From Fodinisporobacter ferrooxydans (lineage in GTDB: Bacteria; Bacillota; Bacilli; Tumebacillales; MYW30-H2), in NCBI RefSeq assembly GCF_022818495.1, contig NZ_CP089291.1, positions 124,001 through 188,000 of the forward strand: DNA of 64,000 nucleotides, written 5' to 3'. The notes under the pieces were generated by a model. It was not told the origin of the DNA, ran no database searches, and worked only from the letters and a program-made list of their open reading frames with translations. The position numbers were made by a program, and so were the translations under genes. This document shows, in pieces, positions 6,967-55,390 of this stretch (position 1 is its first letter; the number at the start of each line of letters is the position of its first letter).

Positions 6967-7683
6967 TTGCTATCAAAATCATTGGTGATTCCCTGCTTGA
7001 TAGTGGCACTCCTTCTCGTGACAAGCATATCCTCACAAGCAGCAGGAACAGAGGCCCCTATGAGTTCCATACGGGATCTTTATGTGAAACATGTGAAAAT
7101 GAAGAGAAAATTAGTAGCCTTGACATTTGACGATGGACCGGATCCCAGATATACTCCGAAGATTATTGAAGAGCTAAACAAATTTGGTGCAAAAGGAACT
7201 TTTTTTGTCATCGGCATGCGGGCAAAACGATACCCGGATCTTTTAAAATTAGAAATCGCCAATGGAGATGAGATTGGAAATCACTCTCTGAACCATCGGT
7301 TAACGAAACTTATCCAGATTGAGGATATCGAAGGCTGTGATCAAGTCGTCTTTGATGCAACCAATCATCACACACGGCTCTTCCGTCCACCGGGTGGATT
7401 TATCAGCAAACAAATTCTTGACAGCGCAAGTAAAGCAAATGAGACGGTCGTAACCTGGAGTTGGGATGAAGATTCCCGCGATTGGTCAAAACCAGGAGTC
7501 TCCAAAATTGTAAATCGCGTACTGAATCACTTACATCCCGGTGATATTATCTTATTTCACGATGGTGGAGGAAAACGGGATCAAACCATTGAAGCATTGC
7601 CGAAAATATTGGAAGGGATTCGAGAACAAGGATTTCAGTGTGTAACTGTATCTGAATTGATTCAAAACTTTGGCGGTACATAG
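6967..7683 (+). CDS. Secreted polysaccharide deacetylase (NodB domain)
   Basis: A 238-aa exported enzyme of the carbohydrate esterase 4 family, likely acting on peptidoglycan or another cell-envelope polysaccharide. A signal peptide covers about residues 1-26. The NodB motifs are in order: ALTFDDGPD with the catalytic and metal Asp pair, the metal-binding HSLNH, the RPPGG loop, a DSRDW element and HDGGGKR. The start is TTG at 6967, with AAAAGGAGGT ending 6 nt before it. Length and layout resemble PdaB-like enzymes of spore formers, but the substrate cannot be fixed from sequence. Confidence 0.88.
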   Translation: MLSKSLVIPCLIVALLLVTSISSQAAGTEAPMSSIRDLYVKHVKMKRKLVALTFDDGPDPRYTPKIIEELNKFGAKGTFFVIGMRAKRYPDLLKLEIANGDEIGNHSLNHRLTKLIQIEDIEGCDQVVFDATNHHTRLFRPPGGFISKQILDSASKANETVVTWSWDEDSRDWSKPGVSKIVNRVLNHLHPGDIILFHDGGGKRDQTIEALPKILEGIREQGFQCVTVSELIQNFGGT

Positions 7684-17695: not shown

Positions 17696-17712
17696 CCACT
17701 CTCCTCTCATCA

Positions 17713-17836
17713 ACGCTTACGAAGTTAGCTGACGGACTCGGGTCTCTGAGAATAACCCTACTGATCATAAAAAATCCTTATACGATCAGATTCGCCCCAA
17801 ATATTTGGTTCCTCCGCTCCTTTTCAGGATTCAGCG
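17713..17836 (-). promoter_or_regulatory. c-di-AMP riboswitch (ydaO/yuaA type)
   Basis: Read on the minus strand, the consensus blocks come in order: CGCTGAATCCTGAAAAGGAG, then TTGGGGCGAATC, an AGGGTT...ACCCGAGTCCGTCAGC core and TAACTTCGTAAGCG, whose end pairs with the beginning to make P1. This matches the ydaO-yuaA class. It lies 18 nt upstream of the unknown gene. High c-di-AMP normally turns such genes off. Confidence 0.88.
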
Positions 17837-18048
17837 AGTATTCTATGTGGTTGTGAGACAAGTATAGCTTTTCTATCATCTTCAAACAAACCGGTTATAC
17901 GATAGGATTCATGAATATGCGCGAGTTCTCAAACGAATACTAGAGTTCCTGTATCTGGAAGGTAAAAGAGTGTATATTCTCTTGTATAATCAACTTAAAG
18001 GGTGCAAAATGATGATAGAATCATAAAAAATGAAGGTGTGAAACGATA

Positions 18049-20750: not shown

Positions 20751-21551
20751 TCATTCCTGATCGTTTATCATTACGATCTGTGACTTCGCTTGCAAATTCA
20801 CTCCTATGTAACAGATTACCAAGCAAATAAAGATAACGACTCCTACAATCTCAAAATCAAGTTCCGCCTGGGGATTGAAGAAAATGAACGCTTCATAAAA
20901 GGAAACGCCATACGCAAGGAATACAATGACCCAGCCCATCACTCTTGAAGCCGATTGGCCCAATTTGCTTGACTGACTGATCATCCGATAGGCAACCATG
21001 GAATCAATCGTATCCGTCAGCATGATGCCGAACATGAAAACCAACCCTAAAATGATTGGCATAGAATTGCCTGAATTTCCGGCGGCAAACGCCCATACTG
21101 ACGTCTGGCTTACCGTATCTGCCGCCATCGCGAATAAGCCTCCAACCAAAATAATCGCGAAAGGATTCGTGGTTCCCCGTACGAATCTTGATATCAACTT
21201 TCCTTTGATCCCTCGCAGTTCAAAGTCTTGCTTTGTCGCCTTTGTACGAAGAAGATGATAGATATTCAATGTTCCGATCAAAAATAATGAAACAATCGAT
21301 AACCACGTCGCAAACGTATTAAATGAATCAGGAAATTGAAAGTTTTTGATAAACATTCCGAGAGTCACTGCGACACTTGCCACGACAAATCCATGACCAA
21401 ATGAAAATAGCGTGCCGACCCAGCGGGCAATCGGACTTCCCATTCGCCAGTTGTAACGTGTCTGCCCATCGATAAATGCCAAATGATCCGCATCCAATCC
21501 ATGACGAAGACCTAATACAAAAACCAGCAAGAGTAATGATACAGTTGTCAT
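20751..21551 (-). CDS. NiCoT/HoxN-like permease, likely cobalt uptake
   Basis: A 266-aa membrane protein of the nickel/cobalt transporter family. The signature RHGLDADHLAFID in helix 2 contains the metal-binding His-x4-Asp-His. Other family elements are FSFGHGFVV and a central LMLTDTIDSMVAYR-like segment (FGIMLTDTIDSM). A cobalamin riboswitch plus terminator precede it, so cobalt for B12 synthesis is the likely cargo rather than nickel. The start at 21551 follows GGGGG by 9 nt; an ATG 24 nt upstream is possible. Confidence 0.85.
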   Translation of the reverse strand: MTTVSLLLLVFVLGLRHGLDADHLAFIDGQTRYNWRMGSPIARWVGTLFSFGHGFVVASVAVTLGMFIKNFQFPDSFNTFATWLSIVSLFLIGTLNIYHLLRTKATKQDFELRGIKGKLISRFVRGTTNPFAIILVGGLFAMAADTVSQTSVWAFAAGNSGNSMPIILGLVFMFGIMLTDTIDSMVAYRMISQSSKLGQSASRVMGWVIVFLAYGVSFYEAFIFFNPQAELDFEIVGVVIFICLVICYIGVNLQAKSQIVMINDQE

Positions 21552-21621
21552 CCATGATTTCCCCCTTGATTGCATTGATTGAAAAAAATTGATTCACAAA
21601 AGATTGATTGGATCCGAAACG

Positions 21622-21652: not shown

Positions 21653-21737
21653 TATGCGTACATATTTTTAAACGACGAACGGGCATGACAATCGTGTCGT
21701 TTCAAGTACACCACTCCTTTTCTCCGAAGGCGTTTTT

Positions 21738-21917
21738 GGTGTCGCAATCTAGGCAGGTCTTCTGGCTTCCGAATCATTGCCATTCCTTCTGTCTTCCCCG
21801 GGCTTGCAGCGAGTGACGTTATGCGAAGGCGGCTCATCGGTTACAGCGGCGGGACCGCTCGGGATTTACACCCGATTCCCTATTATCCCTTGCTCTCACA
21901 AGGGCACCTACATGCTA
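21738..21917 (-). promoter_or_regulatory. Cobalamin riboswitch
   Basis: The minus strand shows the conserved blocks in order: TAGGTGCCC, GGGAATCGGGTGTAAATCCC, GCTGTAACCGATGAGCCGCC, and the B12 box AAGCCAGAAGACCTGCC. It controls the permease gene downstream; cobalamin binding should favour the terminator at 21622-21652. Confidence 0.93.
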
Positions 21918-22030
21918 CATGATGAAATTGTGTGTTTGGTATTTAATATATATTCTTGATTGAATGTAAAATTCCTCTTGCCGCTGGAACGTATTGTCCT
22001 CGATTCACTACCTGCCGGTGCCAAAATGAT

Positions 22031-22924
22031 TTAAACGTAAAAGATGCCATGTTTGCGCAGAAAAGTCTTGAAAGCGAGCATGGCCGGCGACGGATGCTTT
22101 CCTTTATGTGAAACAATATAAAAGTTCCGATGGATGGCATATGGCTCGTGATCATACATGCTCATCAATCCGCACTGCACTTCATGATGAATGGAAAACT
22201 TCGACAAAAAACCGATGGCAGGGCCCGCAATGATTGCTTGTTTGATCGCCTCTGTCGTGTCAAATTCAACGGTTGAAATCGTATCCCAACCGATTCTCGC
22301 AAAATGCTGCAAAATGGTCTTTCTGCTATGAGATCCTTCACTTCTCACTAAAATCGGGTATTGACTTAGTGAATCAAATAAAATGTCGTCTTCACCAACC
22401 AACGGATGGTTTTTGCCCATCGCGAGAACGATCTCGTCTTTAAGAAAAGGCTCCACATACAGCACGTTCGACTCGATGGGCCCTGCTATGATGGCGATAT
22501 CGACATCTCCTGCTTCTGCCCGCTCAAGCATGTGTTTGGTGCAATCGATGTTGACGTGGATTTGAATCCCCGGATACTTGCGGATAAATTTCAAGACTAC
22601 GCTCGGCAATATATAATTCCCGACAGTCGAACTGCAACCGACGCGCAACGAACCGGATTCAAGATTTTTCAATGTTTCAATGGCTGCCTGGGTGCCTTCG
22701 ACAAGTCTTAAAATCTGCTCGCACTGCTTGTACAGCACATATCCTGCCTCGGTCAATGAAACGCTCCGCCCAATTCGGTTAAACAGCGGCAGGCCAAGGT
22801 TTTTTTCCAGCGCTTCGATTTGTCGGGATACGGCAGACTGGCTCATATTCAAATCCTCTGCGGCACGTGTAAAATTCAGACGCTGGGCAACATGGTAAAA
22901 TGTATTGAGTTGATAAAAATCCAT
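22031..22924 (-). CDS. LysR-family regulator divergent from selD
   Basis: A 297-aa LysR-type regulator. The N-terminal winged HTH reads FYHVAQRLNFTRAAEDLNMSQ followed by SAVSRQIEALEKNLGLPLFNR; a type 2 periplasmic-binding-like effector domain fills the rest (GCSSTVGNYILPSVV). It resembles the group annotated as selenium metabolism-associated LysR regulators, and its divergent position about 120 bp from selD supports that. The start at 22924 follows AAGGGG by 10 nt. A sulfur or selenium compound as effector is inference. Confidence 0.87.
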   Translation of the reverse strand: MDFYQLNTFYHVAQRLNFTRAAEDLNMSQSAVSRQIEALEKNLGLPLFNRIGRSVSLTEAGYVLYKQCEQILRLVEGTQAAIETLKNLESGSLRVGCSSTVGNYILPSVVLKFIRKYPGIQIHVNIDCTKHMLERAEAGDVDIAIIAGPIESNVLYVEPFLKDEIVLAMGKNHPLVGEDDILFDSLSQYPILVRSEGSHSRKTILQHFARIGWDTISTVEFDTTEAIKQAIIAGPAIGFLSKFSIHHEVQCGLMSMYDHEPYAIHRNFYIVSHKGKHPSPAMLAFKTFLRKHGIFYV

Positions 22925-23044
22925 ACACCGATCCCCTTGCCTACCATAACCCGGATAATTGTTGTATACTCGATTCAAGCAATTTCATTATACCAAAAGA
23001 TGGCGAGTTTTCTATCTTTGCAGTACTTGACAGGTGGTGATCGG

Positions 23045-24094
23045 ATGGAGGCGCTACCTCCCATACATTTGACATCCTTTTCTCCGGGAGCCGGCTGAGC
23101 GTGTAAAGTCGGTCCGACCGACTTGGCGCACGTGCTGCGCTCGTTGCCGATAGCGATGTCTCCTGATATATTGCTTGGCCGTGGGGATGATGCAAGTGTT
23201 GTTCGCATCTCGGATGACTGTGCAGTCGTTCAGACCATTGATTTCATCAGCCCCGTTGTCAACGATCCGTACGAATTCGGACGCATTGCAGCGGCAAATG
23301 CACTTAGCGACATTTATGCAATGGGCGCGACCCCGTCCTTTGCATTGAATATCGTCGGTTTCCCCATTCATTCGTTGCCGATTGGATATCTGGAAGAGAT
23401 TCTGCGCGGTGGAACTGACATGATGAATCAAGTTGGCGTACCGATTGTTGGCGGACATACGTATGACGACCATGCGCCAAAGTATGGATTGACCGTGACG
23501 GGATTTGTGCACCCGGATCGCTATGTAAAAAGAGGATCCGCCCAACCGGAAGATGCCTTGATTTTGACCAAGCCGCTGGGCGTTGGCATCATTACAACAG
23601 CCATTGACAAAGGATTGGCTTCCTTCGAAAATGAACGCAAGGCGATAGAAATCATGACGACGCTCAATGACAAAGCTGCGAAAGCAATGATGTCTGTCGG
23701 AGTCCATGCGTGTACGGATGTGACCGGATTTGGACTTTTGGGACATCTCTATGAAATGGTCAAGGACGGTGAACTGTGTGCGGACATTCACCTCTCACAA
23801 GTACCTGTGCTGCCGGAAGCATGGAAACTGATTTGCGAAGATACGCTGTCTATAGGAACAAAAAATAACAGGCAAATGTTGAGTGAGAAGGTGTTTTGGG
23901 ATTCGGCTGTCAACGAGAATGAACGGTGGATCTTGTGTGATGCCCAGACTTCCGGCGGCTTGCTTATTGCGGTCCCGGAAAAAAAGAAAACGGAATTGCT
24001 GGATGCATTCGGCAAGGCCGGGTGTTCTGCGGCAGAAATCGGCAAGATCCGCCAGCGTTTGCATGAGGAACGTCCACTTTCCGTAAAAAAGTAA
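23045..24094 (+). CDS. selD: Selenide, water dikinase, selenoprotein form (TGA = Sec18)
   Basis: SelD makes selenophosphate, the Se donor for Sec-tRNA and for selenouridine. The 349-aa frame has one TGA at 23096-23098 (codon 18) in TSFSPGAG-U-ACKVGPTDLAHVL. This aligns with the catalytic Cys/Sec of the Gly-Ala-Gly-Cys/Sec motif, so the enzyme is itself a selenoprotein. The downstream ATP-binding motif GRGDDASVV, DFISPVVNDPYEFGRIAAANALSD and HTYDDHAPKYG are intact. ATG 23045 has AGGTGGTGA upstream. A later ATG would remove the active site. Sec is predicted, not proven. Confidence 0.94.
23106..23124 (+). promoter_or_regulatory. Candidate SECIS in selD
   Basis: Seven nt after the TGA, AAGTCGG and CCGACTT form a 7-bp stem with the loop TCCGA; the palindrome can extend to 9 bp. 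Position fits SelB-dependent UGA recoding. Confidence 0.7.
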
Positions 24095-24255: not shown

Positions 24256-25005
24256 ATGTACTTTCGCCAATATCTGCACAAAGAACCGATCGCAGCTTCT
24301 TATCTATTCGGCTGAGGGGGCAAAGGATATGGAGTAGTGGTGGATCCACTCGATCATGCTGTTGATTTTTACATGCAAGAAGCCGAGCAAGCGGGTTTGA
24401 ATATTCACTATGTGATCGATACGCACGTCCATGCGGATCATATATCGGGGGCGCGGGAACTGGCCGAACGAACCGGCGCCAAGCTGGCACTTTATGCAGA
24501 AACGCCGGCGGAATACGCATTTACGCCGCTTGCGGACGGAGAACGAATCGACTTGGGCAACGTGGTCATCGACGTTGTTCATACACCCGGCCACACGCCG
24601 GAGCATATCAGTCTGATTGTGACAGATCATCGCCGGGGGCCTGAACCTTGGTTTGTACTCACAGGCCACACCTTCATGATCGGCGATGTAGGCCGACCGG
24701 ACCTGGTCGTGGAAGATGGGGCACAGGATCTGTACCATAGCATCTTTGATAAAATGCTTTCTTTGCCGGATTATCTGGAAGTGTATCCCGGCGCATTTTC
24801 CGGCTCGACCTGAGGGCGGGAACTTAGTGGAAAGGTCGTTTCCACCATTGGGTTTGAACGTCGCTTCAATAAAGCGGCAGAGCTGCGTTCCAAGGATGCG
24901 TTCGTTTCTTTCATGCTGGAAGATTTGCCGAATAAGCCGAAGAACTTTGATTTGATTCGCGCCTATAACATGGGCAAAATCAGCGAAAAACCGGCTGTTG
25001 AATAG
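24256..25005 (+). CDS. MBL-fold persulfide-dioxygenase-like selenoprotein with two Sec (20 and 186)
   Basis: A 249-aa metallo-beta-lactamase-fold protein of the group that includes persulfide dioxygenase (ETHE1/Blh-like) and MBL-rhodanese proteins. The metal motif THVHADHISG, then HTPGHTPEH and GDVGRPDL, are intact. TGA codons occur in the same frame at 24313-24315 (YLFG-U-GGKGYGVVVDP) and 24811-24813 (FSGST-U-GRELSGK). Relatives carry Cys at both places, in the usual YLxGC start and the GSxCG loop. ATG 24256 has CGGAGG 9 nt upstream, and the frame ends at TAG 25003. It likely oxidises or hydrolyses a sulfane sulfur species; substrate is inference. Confidence 0.88.
24336..24350 (+). promoter_or_regulatory. 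Candidate SECIS for Sec20 of the MBL protein
   Basis: AGTGG and CCACT pair around the loop TGGAT, 21-35 nt after the first TGA. Confidence 0.55.
24827..24845 (+). promoter_or_regulatory. Candidate SECIS for Sec186 of the MBL protein
   Basis: GTGGAAA and TTTCCAC form a perfect 7-bp stem with the loop GGTCG, 14-32 nt after the second TGA. The GGU in the loop is like the SelB-contact GU of the E. coli fdhF element (known). Confidence 0.75.
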
Positions 25006-25008
25006 AGG

Positions 25009-25041
25009 ACAAGGGAACGGAGGGCATGTCCGTTCCCTTGT
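25009..25041 (+). terminator. 13-bp hairpin between the MBL and MFS genes
   Basis: ACAAGGGAACGGA and TCCGTTCCCTTGT are perfect complements with a 7-nt loop, starting 4 nt after the MBL stop. There is no T-run, so partial termination or 3'-end protection is likely rather than full stop. Confidence 0.55.
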
Positions 25042-25069
25042 TCGCAATCAGAAAGGAGAAACAACGTTT

Positions 25070-26308
25070 GTGAAAGATCATCGATTGGTTCTTGGGCTAC
25101 GACCGAATCTGGCCCAATTTATACTGCTTGCTGTCAATAATGTATTTGTCGGTACCATGGTAGGATTGGAGCGAACCGTGCTGCCGATTCTCGGAAAGCA
25201 TACATTCCATTTGACATCCGTCTCTTTGTTGCTTTCTTTCATCGTATCTTTCGGCATAGTGAAAGGGTTTCTCAATTTGATCGCCGGCAAACTGGCGGAT
25301 CGCTGGGGCAGAAAGCCCGTTCTGCTGGCGGGATGGTTGTTGGGATTGCCGGTCCCGCTCCTTGTCATATTTGCCCCCGACTGGTCCTGGATCATCTTTG
25401 CAAACATACTGCTTGGCGCCAATCAAGGGTTTGCATGGTCGATGACCGTTACCGGCAAAATTGACATCGTAGGACCGACACGGCGTGGCCTGGCGCTTGG
25501 AATCAACGAGTTTTCCGGCTATATTGGCGTAGCTTTGACAAGTGCGGCAACCGGATATCTGGCAAGCGCATATGGCCCCCGGCCAGTGCCATTCCTATTT
25601 GGCGAAGGGATTGCCGTCATCGGTTTGCTCATGGCCTGGCTCATGATTCGGGAGACGCTGCCGTATACCCGACTTGAAATTGCCAAAGGAAGCTACGATC
25701 TTTCGAAAGAAACACTGTCCCTTGGCCAGATCTTTGCGAAAGTCAGTTTTCAGGATCGAACCCTGTTCGCCTGCAGCCAAGCAGGTATGATCAACAAGTT
25801 TAGCGATTCGGCGGTGTGGGGGCTCGTCCCTGTAATAATGGCAGCCGAACATTTTACTGTTGCGCAAATCGGAATGATCAGCAGCGTCTATGCCATGACA
25901 TGGGGAGTGTTCCAGCTCTTCACCGGCATGTGGAGTGATCACGTCGGCCGCAAGATACCGATCGCGCTTGGACAGCTTATAAATGGTATCGGTGTGGCTC
26001 TCGTGCTGTGGGCACATGCATACGGCATGTGGTTTCTCAGCGCGCTTCTAATGGGTGCGGGCACAGCATTGATCTATCCGGTTTTGCTGTCGGCGGTCGG
26101 TGACAAGTCGCATCCGGCGTGGCGCGGCTCCGCACTGGGCGTGTATCGAATGTGGCGGGATGGCGGGTATGCAATCGGCGGGCTGTTATTAGGGTTTGGA
26201 GCGGATTTTCTCGGCATTCATGCGATTTTTGCAGTTTTGGCTGCCATCGTAATCCTGTCGAGCTTATTGGTAATCGTGTTCATGAAGGAAACGTTGGGAC
26301 AACACTAA
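25070..26308 (+). CDS. MFS transporter
   Basis: A 412-aa major facilitator protein with 12 predicted membrane segments. The loop 2-3 motif reads AGKLADRWGRKPVLLAG and the equivalent in the second half is TGMWSDHVGRKIPIALG. Start is GTG at 25070, 11 nt after AAAGGAG. It sits between the selenoprotein MBL gene and the DsrE/SQR-like genes and ends at its own terminator, so it probably handles a sulfur, selenium or related small anion (inference by context). No substrate motif is diagnostic. Confidence 0.82.
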   Translation: MKDHRLVLGLRPNLAQFILLAVNNVFVGTMVGLERTVLPILGKHTFHLTSVSLLLSFIVSFGIVKGFLNLIAGKLADRWGRKPVLLAGWLLGLPVPLLVIFAPDWSWIIFANILLGANQGFAWSMTVTGKIDIVGPTRRGLALGINEFSGYIGVALTSAATGYLASAYGPRPVPFLFGEGIAVIGLLMAWLMIRETLPYTRLEIAKGSYDLSKETLSLGQIFAKVSFQDRTLFACSQAGMINKFSDSAVWGLVPVIMAAEHFTVAQIGMISSVYAMTWGVFQLFTGMWSDHVGRKIPIALGQLINGIGVALVLWAHAYGMWFLSALLMGAGTALIYPVLLSAVGDKSHPAWRGSALGVYRMWRDGGYAIGGLLLGFGADFLGIHAIFAVLAAIVILSSLLVIVFMKETLGQH

Positions 26309-26492: not shown

Positions 26493-26843
26493 ATGAACAT
26501 GCTGTTTATTTTAAATGATCCTCCTTATGGATCGGAACGCTCTTACAACGGTCTTCGCCACGCAACCTCTATCGCAAAAACAGAAGGGGCAGACGTGCGG
26601 ATCTTTTTGATGGCGGATGCGGTTAGTTGTGCAAAGAGAGGACAAAAAACTCCAGATGGCTATTACAACCTGGAGAAAATGTTGACAGTTGTCGGCCGCC
26701 GCTGTTCTTCCATTGGCGCCTGCGGTTCCTGCTTGGATGCACGCGGAGTCAAGCCTGAGGATTTGCATGAATCTGTACACAGGTCTTCTATGGAGGAACT
26801 CACCGAATGGACCTTGTGGGCGGATAAGGTCATTGTCTATTAG
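26493..26843 (+). CDS. DsrE-family sulfur carrier-like protein (first copy)
   Basis: A 116-aa DsrE/DsrF-like protein. It begins MNMLFILNDPPYGSERSYNGLRHA, then has VRIFLMADAV in the second strand and the Cys pair ACGSCLDARGV, where sulfur is normally bound as persulfide. It ends with ELTEWTLWADKVIVY, a family hallmark. CGGAGGG lies 10 nt before ATG. It starts the operon that continues with the SQR-like flavoprotein and a second DsrE. Confidence 0.87.
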   Translation: MNMLFILNDPPYGSERSYNGLRHATSIAKTEGADVRIFLMADAVSCAKRGQKTPDGYYNLEKMLTVVGRRCSSIGACGSCLDARGVKPEDLHESVHRSSMEELTEWTLWADKVIVY

Positions 26844-26883
26844 GAAGTCAACATGACGTGAACCGAGCGGAGGAGAAATATCC

Positions 26884-28032
26884 ATGAGACGTTCTATCGT
26901 TATTCTAGGTGGCGGTGTCGGCGGGGTCATCACCGCAAACCTCTTGAGAAAAAAACTTTCTGACGAATATGAAATCACCCTGATTGACCGGGAGACGAAT
27001 CACGTTTTCGCACCGTCTTTATTGTGGTTGATGACAGGAGACCGAAATGCCGAGAAGATTTCTCGCCCTTTAAGTCGCCTGAAAAGAAAAGGAATCGAAT
27101 TCATTCAAGGTGAAATCGAGCAGATCGATGCTCAGAATCGCACAGTCATCGTAAATGGAGAAAACATTTCAAGCGATTATCTAATCATCTCGTTGGGAGC
27201 TGTTTTGACGCCGGAGGAGATCTCCGGACTGGAAACCGGATTCAGCTTTTATGACCTGAAGGAGACTGAACGCCTAAAACAAAAGCTTTGGGAATTTCAA
27301 AAAGGACGTGTCGTCGTGGTGACGGCTTCCCCCGTTTACAAATGTCCGGCGGCCCCTTACGAAGCAGCGATGCTCATCCACGCTTTCTTTCAGAAACGAG
27401 GCATTCGTCCGCAAGTCACAATGAGCTTCTACGCTGCTGAACCGGCACCGCTTGCCGTAGCAGGAACCAATGTGTCTGAAGGAGTTCAGCAAATGCTGCG
27501 GGAACGGGACATTTCGTATTATCCGCAACACCAGATTACAAAAGTGGACCCGGATAAGCGGGAACTATATTTTGCAAACGGGGTTCATGATTCTTATGAC
27601 TTGCTGGTCTACGTCGCTCCACACAAACCGCCACGAGTCGTACAGGAATCCGGTTTGGTCGGTAAAAGCGGTTGGGTTACGGTTGACCGGCATACGCTCG
27701 AAACGAAAATTCCTGGTGTCTATGCCATCGGCGATGTCACCGGCATTCCTCTCGAACTGGGCAAACCTCTCCCAAAAGCAGGAGTTTTTGCCCATGGACA
27801 AGCAAAAGTGATTGCAAATAATATCGCCCACAAGATAACAGGCGAAGGCCAACAAATCGAGTTTAACGGCCATGGCGAATGTTTTATCGAAATTGGCAAC
27901 AACAAAGCAGGGTTCGCTCGCGGCAATTTTTATGCAAGCCCGGCGCCAACAGTTAAGGTTCATCAACCAGGCATACGATGGCATCTTGGAAAGATCGCAT
28001 TTGAAAAGAGCTGGTTTCGAACATGGTTCTAA
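26884..28032 (+). CDS. Sulfide:quinone oxidoreductase-like FAD protein
   Basis: A 382-aa flavoprotein. The FAD Rossmann motif ILGGGVGGVITAN is at the N-terminus, a second nucleotide site occurs near 140-150, and YAIGDVTGI is the C-terminal FAD motif. PVYKCPAAPYEA carries the Cys that SQR-type enzymes use for sulfur transfer; a second Cys lies in GECFIEIGNNKAGF. The canonical third Cys of SQR was not seen, so the enzyme may act on a persulfide carrier. GGAGGA precedes ATG. The DsrE genes on both sides suggest direct hand-over of sulfur or selenium. Confidence 0.83.
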   Translation: MRRSIVILGGGVGGVITANLLRKKLSDEYEITLIDRETNHVFAPSLLWLMTGDRNAEKISRPLSRLKRKGIEFIQGEIEQIDAQNRTVIVNGENISSDYLIISLGAVLTPEEISGLETGFSFYDLKETERLKQKLWEFQKGRVVVVTASPVYKCPAAPYEAAMLIHAFFQKRGIRPQVTMSFYAAEPAPLAVAGTNVSEGVQQMLRERDISYYPQHQITKVDPDKRELYFANGVHDSYDLLVYVAPHKPPRVVQESGLVGKSGWVTVDRHTLETKIPGVYAIGDVTGIPLELGKPLPKAGVFAHGQAKVIANNIAHKITGEGQQIEFNGHGECFIEIGNNKAGFARGNFYASPAPTVKVHQPGIRWHLGKIAFEKSWFRTWF

Positions 28033-28073
28033 AAAATGCACCGCTACAGAATACCGATTGGGGGAAATAAACG

Positions 28074-28394
28074 TTGAAAATCGGCATTATTCTTGAAACG
28101 AAAGAACCCGAAAAAGCATGGAATGCATTTCGTTTCGCCAATACTTGTGTTTCAAAGGCACATGAAGTACAAGTTTTCTTGATGGGCGAAGCTGTCGAAT
28201 GTGAACAGATTCAACATGAAACCTATAACGTTCCTGAACAAATGAACAAGTTCCTGGAAGCTGACGGCGTTCTGTATGCTTGTGGAACATGCATCAAATC
28301 CCGGCAACTGGAAGACAAGACAGCCTGTCCGATCTCGACCATGAATGATGCGATCAAATTGGTCGAATGGGCTGATAAAGTTGTGACATTCTAA
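28074..28394 (+). CDS. DsrE-family sulfur carrier-like protein (second copy)
   Basis: A 106-aa relative of the first DsrE. It starts MKIGIILETKEPEKAWNAFRFA, has VQVFLMGEAVECE and the pair YACGTCIKSRQ, and ends LVEWADKVVTF. TTG start at 28074 with GGGGGA upstream. Sequence identity to the first copy appears low outside the core, so the two may form a hetero-oligomer as DsrE/DsrF do (inference). Confidence 0.84.
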   Translation: MKIGIILETKEPEKAWNAFRFANTCVSKAHEVQVFLMGEAVECEQIQHETYNVPEQMNKFLEADGVLYACGTCIKSRQLEDKTACPISTMNDAIKLVEWADKVVTF

Positions 28395-29387: not shown

Positions 29388-31490
29388 ATGACTGCGGAAA
29401 AAAAATCGGTCTATCATATAACAGGCATGACCTGAGCAGGTTGCGCCGCCAAAATTGAGCGGCATCTTCAGGCGTTGCCTGAACTGACAGAAGTATCTTT
29501 ACATTTTGCCACAGCCAAATTAATGGTCATCGGTACGCTTTCCAAAGATCAATTGGAAAAAGAAGCGAGAAAAGTCGAACAGGTTTCCTTCGCTGAAGAG
29601 GGTTCTGCCCAATCTTTGATACAGCTTCCCTGGTATCGTTCACAAAAGGTTTGGACAACCGGTTTGTCTCTCGTATGTCTGCTGTTGGGATGGGGATTTG
29701 GGTCATTCGCATCGGGACGGCTCTTTCTGCTTCTTTCCATCCTTCTTGGCGGATATTCGGTCGCGAAAAAAGGTTTGCGAAATGTTATGCGCCTTGATTT
29801 TGACATGAACGTATTAATGACAGTTGCTGTCATTGGCGCACTGTTCATCGGCCAGTGGAAAGAGGCAGCAACCGTAGCCTTCCTGTTTTCCGTGAGTGAA
29901 ATGCTGGAGTCGTATTCCATGGAGAAAGCCCGCTCCTCGATCCGGACGTTAATGGATCTTGCGCCAAAAGAAGCCATCGTGATTCGCGGCGGGCGTGAAG
30001 TTCGGCTGCCTGTTGAACAACTGGCGATCGGAGATGAACTGCTCGTCAAACCCGGGGAGAAACTGGCAATCGATGGCGAAATCATGGCAGGTGCCACCAC
30101 TATCAACGAAGCGGCGATTACAGGCGAATCGATGCCTGTCGAAAAGCAGGCGGGCGATGCGGTTTATGCGGGAACCTTGAATCAAACAGGTACCATTCGC
30201 ATGCGTGCCACAGCTCTTGCACAGGATACTACATTGGCAAAAATCACCCATTTGGTGGAAGAGGCACAAAACCAAAAGGCTCCTTCCCAAACATTTGTCG
30301 ACCGTTTTGCCAAACATTACACGCCGATTGTCATGAGCTTGGCATTGATGACTGCCTTTGTTCCTCCCCTCTTCTTTCATGGGGATTGGAAACATTGGAT
30401 ATACGAAGCCTTGGCATTGCTCGTCGTCGCTTGTCCTTGTGCACTCGTCATCTCGACACCGGTCGCGATCGTTACCGGAATCGGCTCGGCTGCACGCAAC
30501 GGAGTTCTGATCAAAGGCGGCTTATATCTGGAGGAACTGGGGAAATTAAAAGGAATTGCCTTTGACAAGACCGGAACTTTGACAAAAGGCAAACCTGTTG
30601 TCATGGATTGGGATACCACAAGCTCACGTTCGAAGCTGGAGATCCTTACACTTGCCGCAATGCTGGAAAGAGGTTCGGAACACCCGCTTGCCGGCGCGAT
30701 TCTCGCCAAAGCGGATGCCATGGGTGTCAGTTCCCCGCAAATGGCGGAAACCATGCAAATCCTTGTCGGCAAAGGCGCATCTGGCAGGATCGACGGCAAA
30801 ACCTATTATATCGGCAATGTCCGTTTGTTCCATGACCTGCATATCGATTTGTCGACCGTTCAGGAGGAAATCAACCGGATCCAGGCACAAGGCCAAACCT
30901 TGATGCTGCTGGGGGATGAATACGAGATTCTTGGCTGGATCGCTGTCTCGGACCAGGTACGTGAACAAAGCGCCGCTGCAATTCAAGCGCTGCATCATTT
31001 AGGCATTCAACAGATCGTCATGTTATCCGGCGACACACAGCAAACGGCCCGTGCCATTGCGGAACGTGTAGGCATTCGGGAGTATTACGGAGAAATGCTT
31101 CCGGAACAGAAGCTGGAAAAACTGAAGAAGTTGCTGCAAACACAAAAAAAGGTGGCAATGGTCGGCGATGGGATCAATGACGCTCCGGCACTCGCAGCCG
31201 CCACTGTCGGAATCTCCATCGGGAAAGCGGGAACGGACGTTGCGCTGGAAACTGCAGACGTCGCATTGATGTCGGACGATGTATCCAGGATACCATATGC
31301 CATTGCATTAGGCAGAAAGGCGCTTGGCATTATCAAACAAAATATTTTCTTGGCTTTGGCACTGAAGACCATTGCCGTATTGCTGGTATTCCCAGGCTGG
31401 CTGACACTTTGGTTTGCAATCGTTTCGGATATGGGGGCAACACTGCTCGTCACGTTAAACGGCTGGCGCTTGCTGCGATCCCGGCCATAA
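29388..31490 (+). CDS. Zn/Cd/Pb-type P1B ATPase, selenoprotein (TGA = Sec16 in the HMA CxxC)
   Basis: A 700-aa heavy-metal exporter. The N-terminal HMA domain reads YHITGMT-U-AGCAAKIERHL: the TGA at 29433-29435 replaces the first Cys of the CxxC metal site. The ATPase core has TGES, CPCALVISTP (Cys349 and Cys351), DKTGTLTKG with Asp393, HPLAGAIL and [10 protein letters not shown], typical of ZntA/CadA. AGGAGG lies 11 nt before ATG 29388. A start after the TGA at 29475 would lack both the first Cys and a good ribosome site. Whether the TGA is really read as Sec, or is a nonsense change with reinitiation, must be tested. Confidence 0.83.
29445..29463 (+). promoter_or_regulatory. Candidate SECIS in the P1B ATPase gene
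   Basis: GCCGC and GCGGC pair around a 9-nt loop, 10-28 nt after the TGA. The stem is short and GC-rich; the loop contains a single G. Confidence 0.5.
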
Positions 31491-55174: not shown

Positions 55175-55193
55175 AATAAAAACTCCTTTCAAA

Positions 55194-55291
55194 TGCCTCC
55201 GAGGTTAGTTGACGGGTTTGGGAAGAAAGGTATCCCATCACATTTCCATGTGATTCACCCCAAAAAAAGTCCCCCGTACTGCCCAAAGCAA
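55194..55291 (-). promoter_or_regulatory. c-di-AMP riboswitch (ydaO/yuaA type)
   Basis: Minus strand: TGCTTTGGGCAGTACGGGGG, then TTGGGGTGAATC, GGGATACC, then CCCAAACCCGTCAACTAACC and TCGGAGGCA at the end. This matches the ydaO consensus, including P1 pairing TGC/GCA. It precedes the wall hydrolase gene. Confidence 0.9.
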
Positions 55292-55390
55292 GTAGAAAAA
55301 CCTACAAACTTTGAATAGATTCGGCAAATTTTTTAGTATTTTCTTATATTCTATCAAGTCGAATGATTGTTTCTTTACCGATACATTCCG

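Follow-up and report, generated by a model that had tools for sequence, protein, structure and literature searches.

Cysteine dioxygenase is an enzyme with a triple-His iron site on a cupin fold. Persulfide dioxygenases, which are among the closest described relatives of the protein considered here, hold their metal with two histidines and one aspartate in P. aeruginosa, as stated in the available part of PMC12856154, and the ligands of the Acidithiobacillus caldus enzyme are H57, H113 and D130, with H171 predicted to hydrogen-bond D130 (PMC6060420, accessible sections). In the same sections cysteine dioxygenase is named as the triple-His comparison, and the engineered D130H variant, called a triple-His mimic of that enzyme, retains 0.5–2% activity and little iron. 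For the hairpins (SECIS elements) that accompany selenocysteine (Sec) codons in bacteria, the accessible text of a 2026 review (PMC13188914) gives a model with a loop of 3–9 nt containing an early G, a stem of 4–16 bp, a spacing of 16–37 nt and an energy of −7.5 or lower.

The window analysed here is a stretch of 64,000 nucleotides from Fodinisporobacter ferrooxydans (contig NZ_CP089291.1), and its gene at 24256–25005 on the forward strand encodes an MBL-fold protein of 249 residues with two Sec codons. The frame is open from its ATG, which by eye is preceded by a Shine-Dalgarno-like GGAGGTG, to the final stop, and is interrupted only by two in-frame TGAs, at 24313–24315 (residue 20, in YLFG-U-G) and at 24811–24813 (residue 186, in GST-U-G). 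When both TGAs are read as residues the product matches PF00753, MBL being the only domain found with Pfam, and the NCBIfam profiles gave matches far under their cut-offs only. An earlier note, made from the letters alone, had placed both TGAs where relatives have Cys, and the alignment of homologues agrees with it at both columns. The same alignment puts the protein in a subfamily of CstB/ETHE1-type MBL-fold proteins that stand alone and have, without exception, either Cys or Sec at residues 20 and 186 (33 of 33 rows); other sense codons at these sites, which the note had named as evidence against its idea, do not occur there. Among more distant rows with an Asp metal site, Cys 186 is present in 56 of 56, and Cys 20 is missing from 14 of 56 (12 gaps, one Ser and one Asp). 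Both UGAs are almost certainly read as selenocysteine. The best explanation as a whole, a genuine double-Sec MBL protein that works as a soft-chalcogen enzyme, has in our estimate a probability of roughly 0.7, and its functional part (the metal site, the Se/S pair, the substrate and the export) is a good deal more tentative.

The pair of TGAs recurs in other genomes. A first search of 200 relatives returned eight genomes besides the gene's own with a copy at about 58–63% identity, one of which (G041) has TGA at both columns and seven of which have Cys at both; Sulfobacillus harzensis, among the matches listed, also has TGA at both columns. The loci named individually are the best 80 of 587. 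When ten genomes were tested, tRNA-Sec and SelB scored over cut-off in exactly the three with TGA/TGA copies, and neither did so in the seven Cys genomes. The order of Sulfobacillus was then represented by 42 genomes, chosen because of the S. harzensis match. TGA stands at 186 in 19 full-length copies from 17 genomes, the window gene included, which are mostly of the Sulfobacillus order, and the case is thus not the rarity in a single Bacillus-like genome for which it had been taken. In these 19 copies residue 20 is encoded by TGA in 16 (the window gene and 15 others) and is Cys in three, and the combination of Sec 20 with Cys 186 is found in no copy of this full-length set. Sec 186 is therefore more persistent than Sec 20.

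Of the 17 genomes in which residue 186 is encoded by TGA, 15 yielded a tRNA-Sec; in the other two (G619 and G621) it was not found with the stricter filter, and SelB is over cut-off in both. One genome of the Sulfobacillus order, G609, has tRNA-Sec and SelB, yet its copy is Cys/Cys. Nine genomes of this order (G618, G589, G590, G592, G601, G602, G611, G614 and G615) show two or three tRNA-Sec matches over cut-off each, with scores that are sometimes clearly different. For the counts, G516 was represented by its twin G611 (same contig coordinates and score), G609 was taken as Cys/Cys with G608 left out, and L155 (G200, contig 396) was left out on the assumption that it is the same locus as L051. 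Three copies were dropped beforehand, namely that of G614, which has TGA at 20 and stops at a contig end before 186, and G598b and G621b, which are distant Asp-site copies without TGA.

Each TGA is followed by a SECIS-like hairpin, which was also part of the earlier note, and recurrence at the same offset supports both, the first being weaker than the second. The first hairpin (24336–24350, forward strand) has a 5-bp stem, AGTGG/CCACT, with the loop TGGAT, 25 nt past its TGA. The second (24827–24845, forward strand) carries the loop GGTCG on a 7-bp stem, GTGGAAA/TTTCCAC, just as described beforehand, and the loop lies 20 nt past the TGA. Measured against the limits in the available text of the review, the second hairpin fits in loop, stem and spacing and with −9.9 kcal/mol over 40 nt, a value that includes a second small hairpin (−7.2 alone), and the first fits in loop, stem and spacing, but its 40-nt value for this gene, −5.6 kcal/mol, falls short of −7.5. 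Over 48 nt the first hairpin reaches −9.3 kcal/mol, and its counterparts in G041 and S. harzensis reach −13.8 and −18.2 kcal/mol over 40 nt. Rfam gave no SECIS family match in the window, and at a relaxed threshold the segment 22900–29700 gave one sub-threshold, unrelated match.

Folding energies as such are not exceptional. Ranked against synonymous recodings, the two hairpins of this gene gave p values of 0.34 and 0.027, and two other Sec genes that were tried gave 0.20, 0.13, 0.11 and 0.083; these single-hairpin values are weak and do not serve as proof here. When synonymous codons were shuffled, all pairs formed at the exact position with probabilities of 0.005 (this gene), 0.009 (G041) and 0.004 (S. 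harzensis) for the second hairpin and of 0.055, 0.090 and 0.092, respectively, for the first, and a joint value is not a proper p, since the places were picked on the tested sequences and these share ancestry. What lifts the hairpins above chance, more strongly than energy, is that they recur at the same offset and that their synonymous codons are nearly frozen in the 19 sequences. Behind residue 186, each of the 19 copies forms all seven pairs at +20 nt, with the loop GGTCG in 16 and GGTCT, AGTTG and ACTCG in one each (the last, in the Sec186 copy of G621, is without the expected early G). Behind residue 20, all five pairs are formed in 16 of 16 Sec20 copies at +25 nt, with the loop TGGAT.

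The 13 hairpin codons have a mean top-codon share of 0.86 versus a background of 0.52 (89 conserved degenerate codons outside the hairpins, none of them at 0.95 or above), and no random codon set in 100,000 was as high. In the second hairpin the shares are 1.0 for AGT, 0.95 for GGA, 0.89 for AAG, 0.94 for GTC, 1.0 for GTT, 1.0 for TCC and 0.63 for ACC, and in the first they are 0.89 and 1.0 for the two GTG codons, 0.89 for GAT, 0.79 for CCA, 0.42 for CTC and 0.76 for CCT. Cys copies display no such codon freezing at the hairpin codons, except for GAT (0.89). Furthermore, the second hairpin's loop contains the codon for residue 194, and this residue is Val in 18 and Leu in one of the 19 Sec186 copies but Pro in 29 and Ser in one of the 30 Cys rows of the subfamily, as though the choice of amino acid were imposed by the RNA loop.

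The three Cys20 copies show what happens to the first hairpin when its UGA is gone. They retain 4, 2 and 3 of its five pairs, respectively, and keep the second hairpin, and in the tree they group as a single clade nested in that of the order's Sec/Sec copies (100/100, within a 98/88 branch). This nested position and the lost pairs indicate that Cys probably replaced Sec 20 and that the first hairpin decayed afterwards.

The genome itself (4.86 Mb, one contig) is equipped for Sec insertion. Its tRNA-Sec scores 60.5 bits against a cut-off of 47 and is called tRNA-SeC with anticodon tca by ARAGORN, SelB is above its cut-off, SelA reaches 598.7 bits, and SelD is encoded next to the MBL gene; the lack of selA, selB or selC in the genome, which had been put forward as grounds for giving up the idea, is thus not what was found. 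The selenophosphate synthetase gene selD (23045–24094, forward strand, start chosen by eye from the ORF list) lies directly upstream of the MBL gene, and the codon of its own catalytic Cys is a TGA at 23096–23098 (GAG-U-ACK), as indicated by the read-through translation, by AIRS and AIRS_C (Pfam) after the TGA, and by a hairpin. The selD of G041 has an in-frame TGA too. Divergent from selD is a gene for a LysR-type regulator (22031–22978, reverse strand; Pfam LysR_substrate and HTH_1), an arrangement shared with G041 at 47% identity. As a separate observation, a heavy-metal P-type ATPase, so recognised by eye, is encoded at 29388–31490 (forward strand) with a TGA at 29433–29435, which would give the N-terminal metal motif GMT-U-AGC if read as Sec; Table 1 of PMC13188914 lists a matching family, 'cation-transporting ATPase, UxxC', and selD, the MBL gene and this gene, all within 8 kb, bring the number of candidate Sec codons to four.

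Regarding the protein itself, an AlphaFold2 model (Sec modelled as Cys, metal-free) has a mean pLDDT of 94.9. Its best PDB matches are the MBL-rhodanese protein 3tp9 and the S. aureus MBL protein 3r2u (VIA-align Z of 36.0 and 34.9), followed by the ETHE1-type persulfide dioxygenases 4ysb, 8zbd and 4chl (31.9, 31.8 and 31.7). PF00753, the fold and HxHxDH all place it in the MBL superfamily, H57, H59, D61 and H62 being invariant in the alignment of copies. The 2-His-1-Asp triad of persulfide dioxygenases is changed, as the protein has His at 138, a position that aligns to the iron-ligand Asp of 4ysb, and Ala at 180, which according to the PGH motif would be the counterpart of A. caldus H171. Positions 138 and 180 are exchanged together: among 89 aligned rows, two of which (L016 and L049) are identical, 56 have Asp/His, 33 have His/Ala and none is mixed, and His/Ala is also found in 20 of 20 when the 19 Sec186 copies and that of G609 are considered, some of which are already among the 33. 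In the tree, five His/Ala rows from gamma-proteobacteria are placed with Asp/His rows (99/98), and the swap may therefore have arisen more than once or been reversed. The description 'persulfide-dioxygenase-like' is consequently right as regards the fold and the nearest structures, but dioxygenase activity cannot be assumed with the iron-ligand Asp replaced by His and a coupled His-to-Ala change. Since the A. caldus D130H variant is nearly inactive, a natural triple-His site may not be an oxygenase.

Taken together, the following mechanism can be proposed. To judge from the comparison of copies, UGA 20 and UGA 186 are almost certainly each recoded through the hairpin directly downstream by the cell's own SelA, SelB, SelC and SelD, and the adjoining selD would secure the selenium. 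H57, H113 and H138 would hold one metal, probably iron, in a predicted triple-His site, and residues 186 and 20 would work as a pair in which Sec186 is the nucleophile or a soft ligand and residue 20 the partner that resolves it; the greater persistence of Sec 186 suggests that residue 186 is the reactive one. The pair would take up either a soft metalloid bound to a thiol or a sulfane-sulfur species (persulfide or selenopersulfide), the enzyme would oxidise or split what is captured, the neighbouring MFS carrier would export the product, and ArsR-rhodanese or LysR genes would control expression. The role would presumably be the detoxification of sulfane sulfur or soft metalloids. A more specific version is speculative: the family might have turned a 2-His-1-Asp site into a cysteine-dioxygenase-like triple-His site by jointly replacing the ligand and the residue hydrogen-bonded to it, perhaps repeatedly, and in Sec users the site would work with the Sec pair (a diselenide or two selenolates) on persulfides, selenopersulfides or thiolated metalloids. 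If true, this would be a metalloenzyme in which two Sec residues serve one metal site.

The alternative that survives best accepts the Sec insertion and considers the two residues structural or protective, as a diselenide or selenenyl-sulfide lock in an otherwise ordinary persulfide dioxygenase. Two other cysteines of the A. caldus enzyme form a disulfide that is thought to be stabilising or protective (PMC6060420, accessible sections), and the nearest structures include persulfide dioxygenase types, but an ordinary dioxygenase hardly agrees with the coupled loss of the Asp ligand or with the residual activity of the engineered Asp-to-His variant, which renders this alternative rather unlikely.

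The neighbours of the gene bear on what the proposed soft-chalcogen enzyme might act upon. An MFS transporter gene follows it at 24998–26308 (forward strand; Pfam MFS_1), for which the ORF list gives a TTG start, a GTG near 25071 being likelier by eye, and NCBIfam placed the carrier in no specific family over cut-off. The window gene adjoins selD and the LysR gene, and the usual partners in the subfamily are an MFS transporter and an ArsR-rhodanese regulator. Of 32 His/Ala neighbourhoods, counted with that of the window gene and after removal of one duplicate, 28 contain an MFS homologue within 4 kb, that of S. harzensis L051 contains a fragment, and three contain neither (in one of these the sequence stops 126 bases away from the gene). 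Within the same distance, ArsR-rhodanese fusions occur in 25, selD in two, and ACR3 with ArsC in three. In the Sulfobacillus order, 17 neighbourhoods (16 Sec copies and G609) have a full MFS gene in 16 and a cut one in one, and a full ArsR-rhodanese gene in seven, a partial one in four and none in six; selD, ACR3 and ArsC are found in 0 of these 17. Loci with flanks among the best 80 of 587 include 20 named His/Ala loci, with MFS in 18 and ArsR-rhodanese in 16, and 40 Asp-site loci, in which these neighbours are less frequent (15 and 14, respectively). As relatives with an Asp site thus have them too, the gene context is not informative about the His site in particular.

Several further features were seen around these genes. 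In S. harzensis an MFS remnant lies behind the double-Sec gene (L051, about 7071–7250), and the second copy, L160, has a full one, and in part of the Sulfobacillus order (L166, L167 and L168) the MBL and MFS genes are separated by one for a protein in which two rhodanese-like stretches can be recognised by eye. Directly after its MFS gene, the window has a DsrE-like gene, a gene for a sulfide-dehydrogenase-like flavoprotein and a second DsrE-like gene (26493–28394, forward strand). It also holds a cobalamin riboswitch (21735–21925, reverse strand) upstream of a NicO-type transporter gene (20751–21575), and two c-di-AMP riboswitches (17699–17846 and 55179–55336, both reverse strand).

An arsenic or other metalloid resistance enzyme partnered with the MFS carrier would also fit some of the neighbourhoods. 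In two of the three with ACR3 and ArsC, ArsI adjoins as well (G130, and G065 by clustering). Plasmids contributed 34 records with a relative at E up to 1e-50, and in the six examined, ArsR/SmtB and MFS genes lie next to or near the relative, with mercury genes in two; these six copies have Cys at the first site and PGA with GSVCG at the second, and TGH in the four that match the pattern. The arsenic linkage that G130, G065 and G056 had suggested is not upheld in the wider set, as ACR3 and ArsC are missing near the other 29 of 32 and from the whole Sulfobacillus-order set, and a metalloid resistance role is thus unlikely. Sulfane-sulfur chemistry is favoured over arsenic by the constant partners, a rhodanese-type sensor and an MFS carrier, and by the dioxygenase-like Asp-site relatives in the same module. 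A separate candidate, the Sulfobacillus thermotolerans MBL protein that is 6.3-fold up on arsenopyrite (PMC7409299, accessible part), was set aside, having 312 residues versus 249 and no established identity with the window protein.

Less probable still is a selenium-handling protein that, together with SelD, traps reactive selenium for selenophosphate synthesis or detoxifies an excess of it: the order selD(U)-MBL(UU)-MFS is shared by two distant genomes, the window's own and G041, but selD is a neighbour in only two of 32 cases and nowhere in the Sulfobacillus-order set, and Cys forms occur in genomes without tRNA-Sec. A pseudogene, a sequencing error or a code that reads TGA as Trp, to which the two stops within the frame might point, is hardly credible given the identical two TGAs in other genomes, the purifying selection downstream of them, relatives that show Cys rather than Trp, and a tRNA-Sec with a UCA anticodon.

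The double-Sec MBL protein would add a family on a fold outside the 119 selenoprotein families listed in Table 1 of PMC13188914, where no row names an MBL-fold protein, a metallo-beta-lactamase or a persulfide dioxygenase; the accessible text of that review has 0 matches for MBL and 0 for hydrolase. Titles and abstracts of the literature, covered in part, yielded no Sec-containing MBL-fold protein and no ArsR-rhodanese/MBL/MFS module. Moreover, the Sec/Sec, Cys/Sec and Cys/Cys copies amount to a natural SECIS experiment in which hairpins are kept with UGA, the first has decayed where UGA became Cys, and one residue is apparently set by the RNA. Predicted natural triple-His relatives of persulfide dioxygenases would also make the role of the site testable, considering how nearly dead the engineered variant described in part of PMC6060420 is.

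A triple-His site would be common to cysteine dioxygenase and the window protein, the three histidines of which are candidates by alignment only, and the folds differ. The ETHE1-type enzymes (4ysb, 4chl, 8zbd and the A. caldus persulfide dioxygenase) have in common with it the fold, the HxHxDH and GH motifs and two His ligands, but their third ligand is Asp where the window protein has His; in the alignments, 4ysb has Asp instead of Cys at 20, and 4ysb and 8zbd are without the GSxC segment. The CstB-type proteins, 3tp9 and 3r2u (the latter of which we take to be CstB), have the same fold at 33–39% identity and Cys at both columns, which by eye correspond to C44 and C225 of the 3r2u chain, or to C20 and C201 if it carries a 24-residue tag. 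Compared with them, the window protein, with its 249 residues and its MBL domain alone, lacks a C-terminal rhodanese domain and has His instead of Asp at 138, Ala instead of His at 180 and Sec in place of Cys. With known bacterial selenoproteins the gene shares a UGA at a Cys column, a downstream hairpin and the Sec machinery, and, set against the 119-family inventory and the literature, its sequence points to a new double-Sec family whose fold is that of known enzymes and whose metal site is altered.
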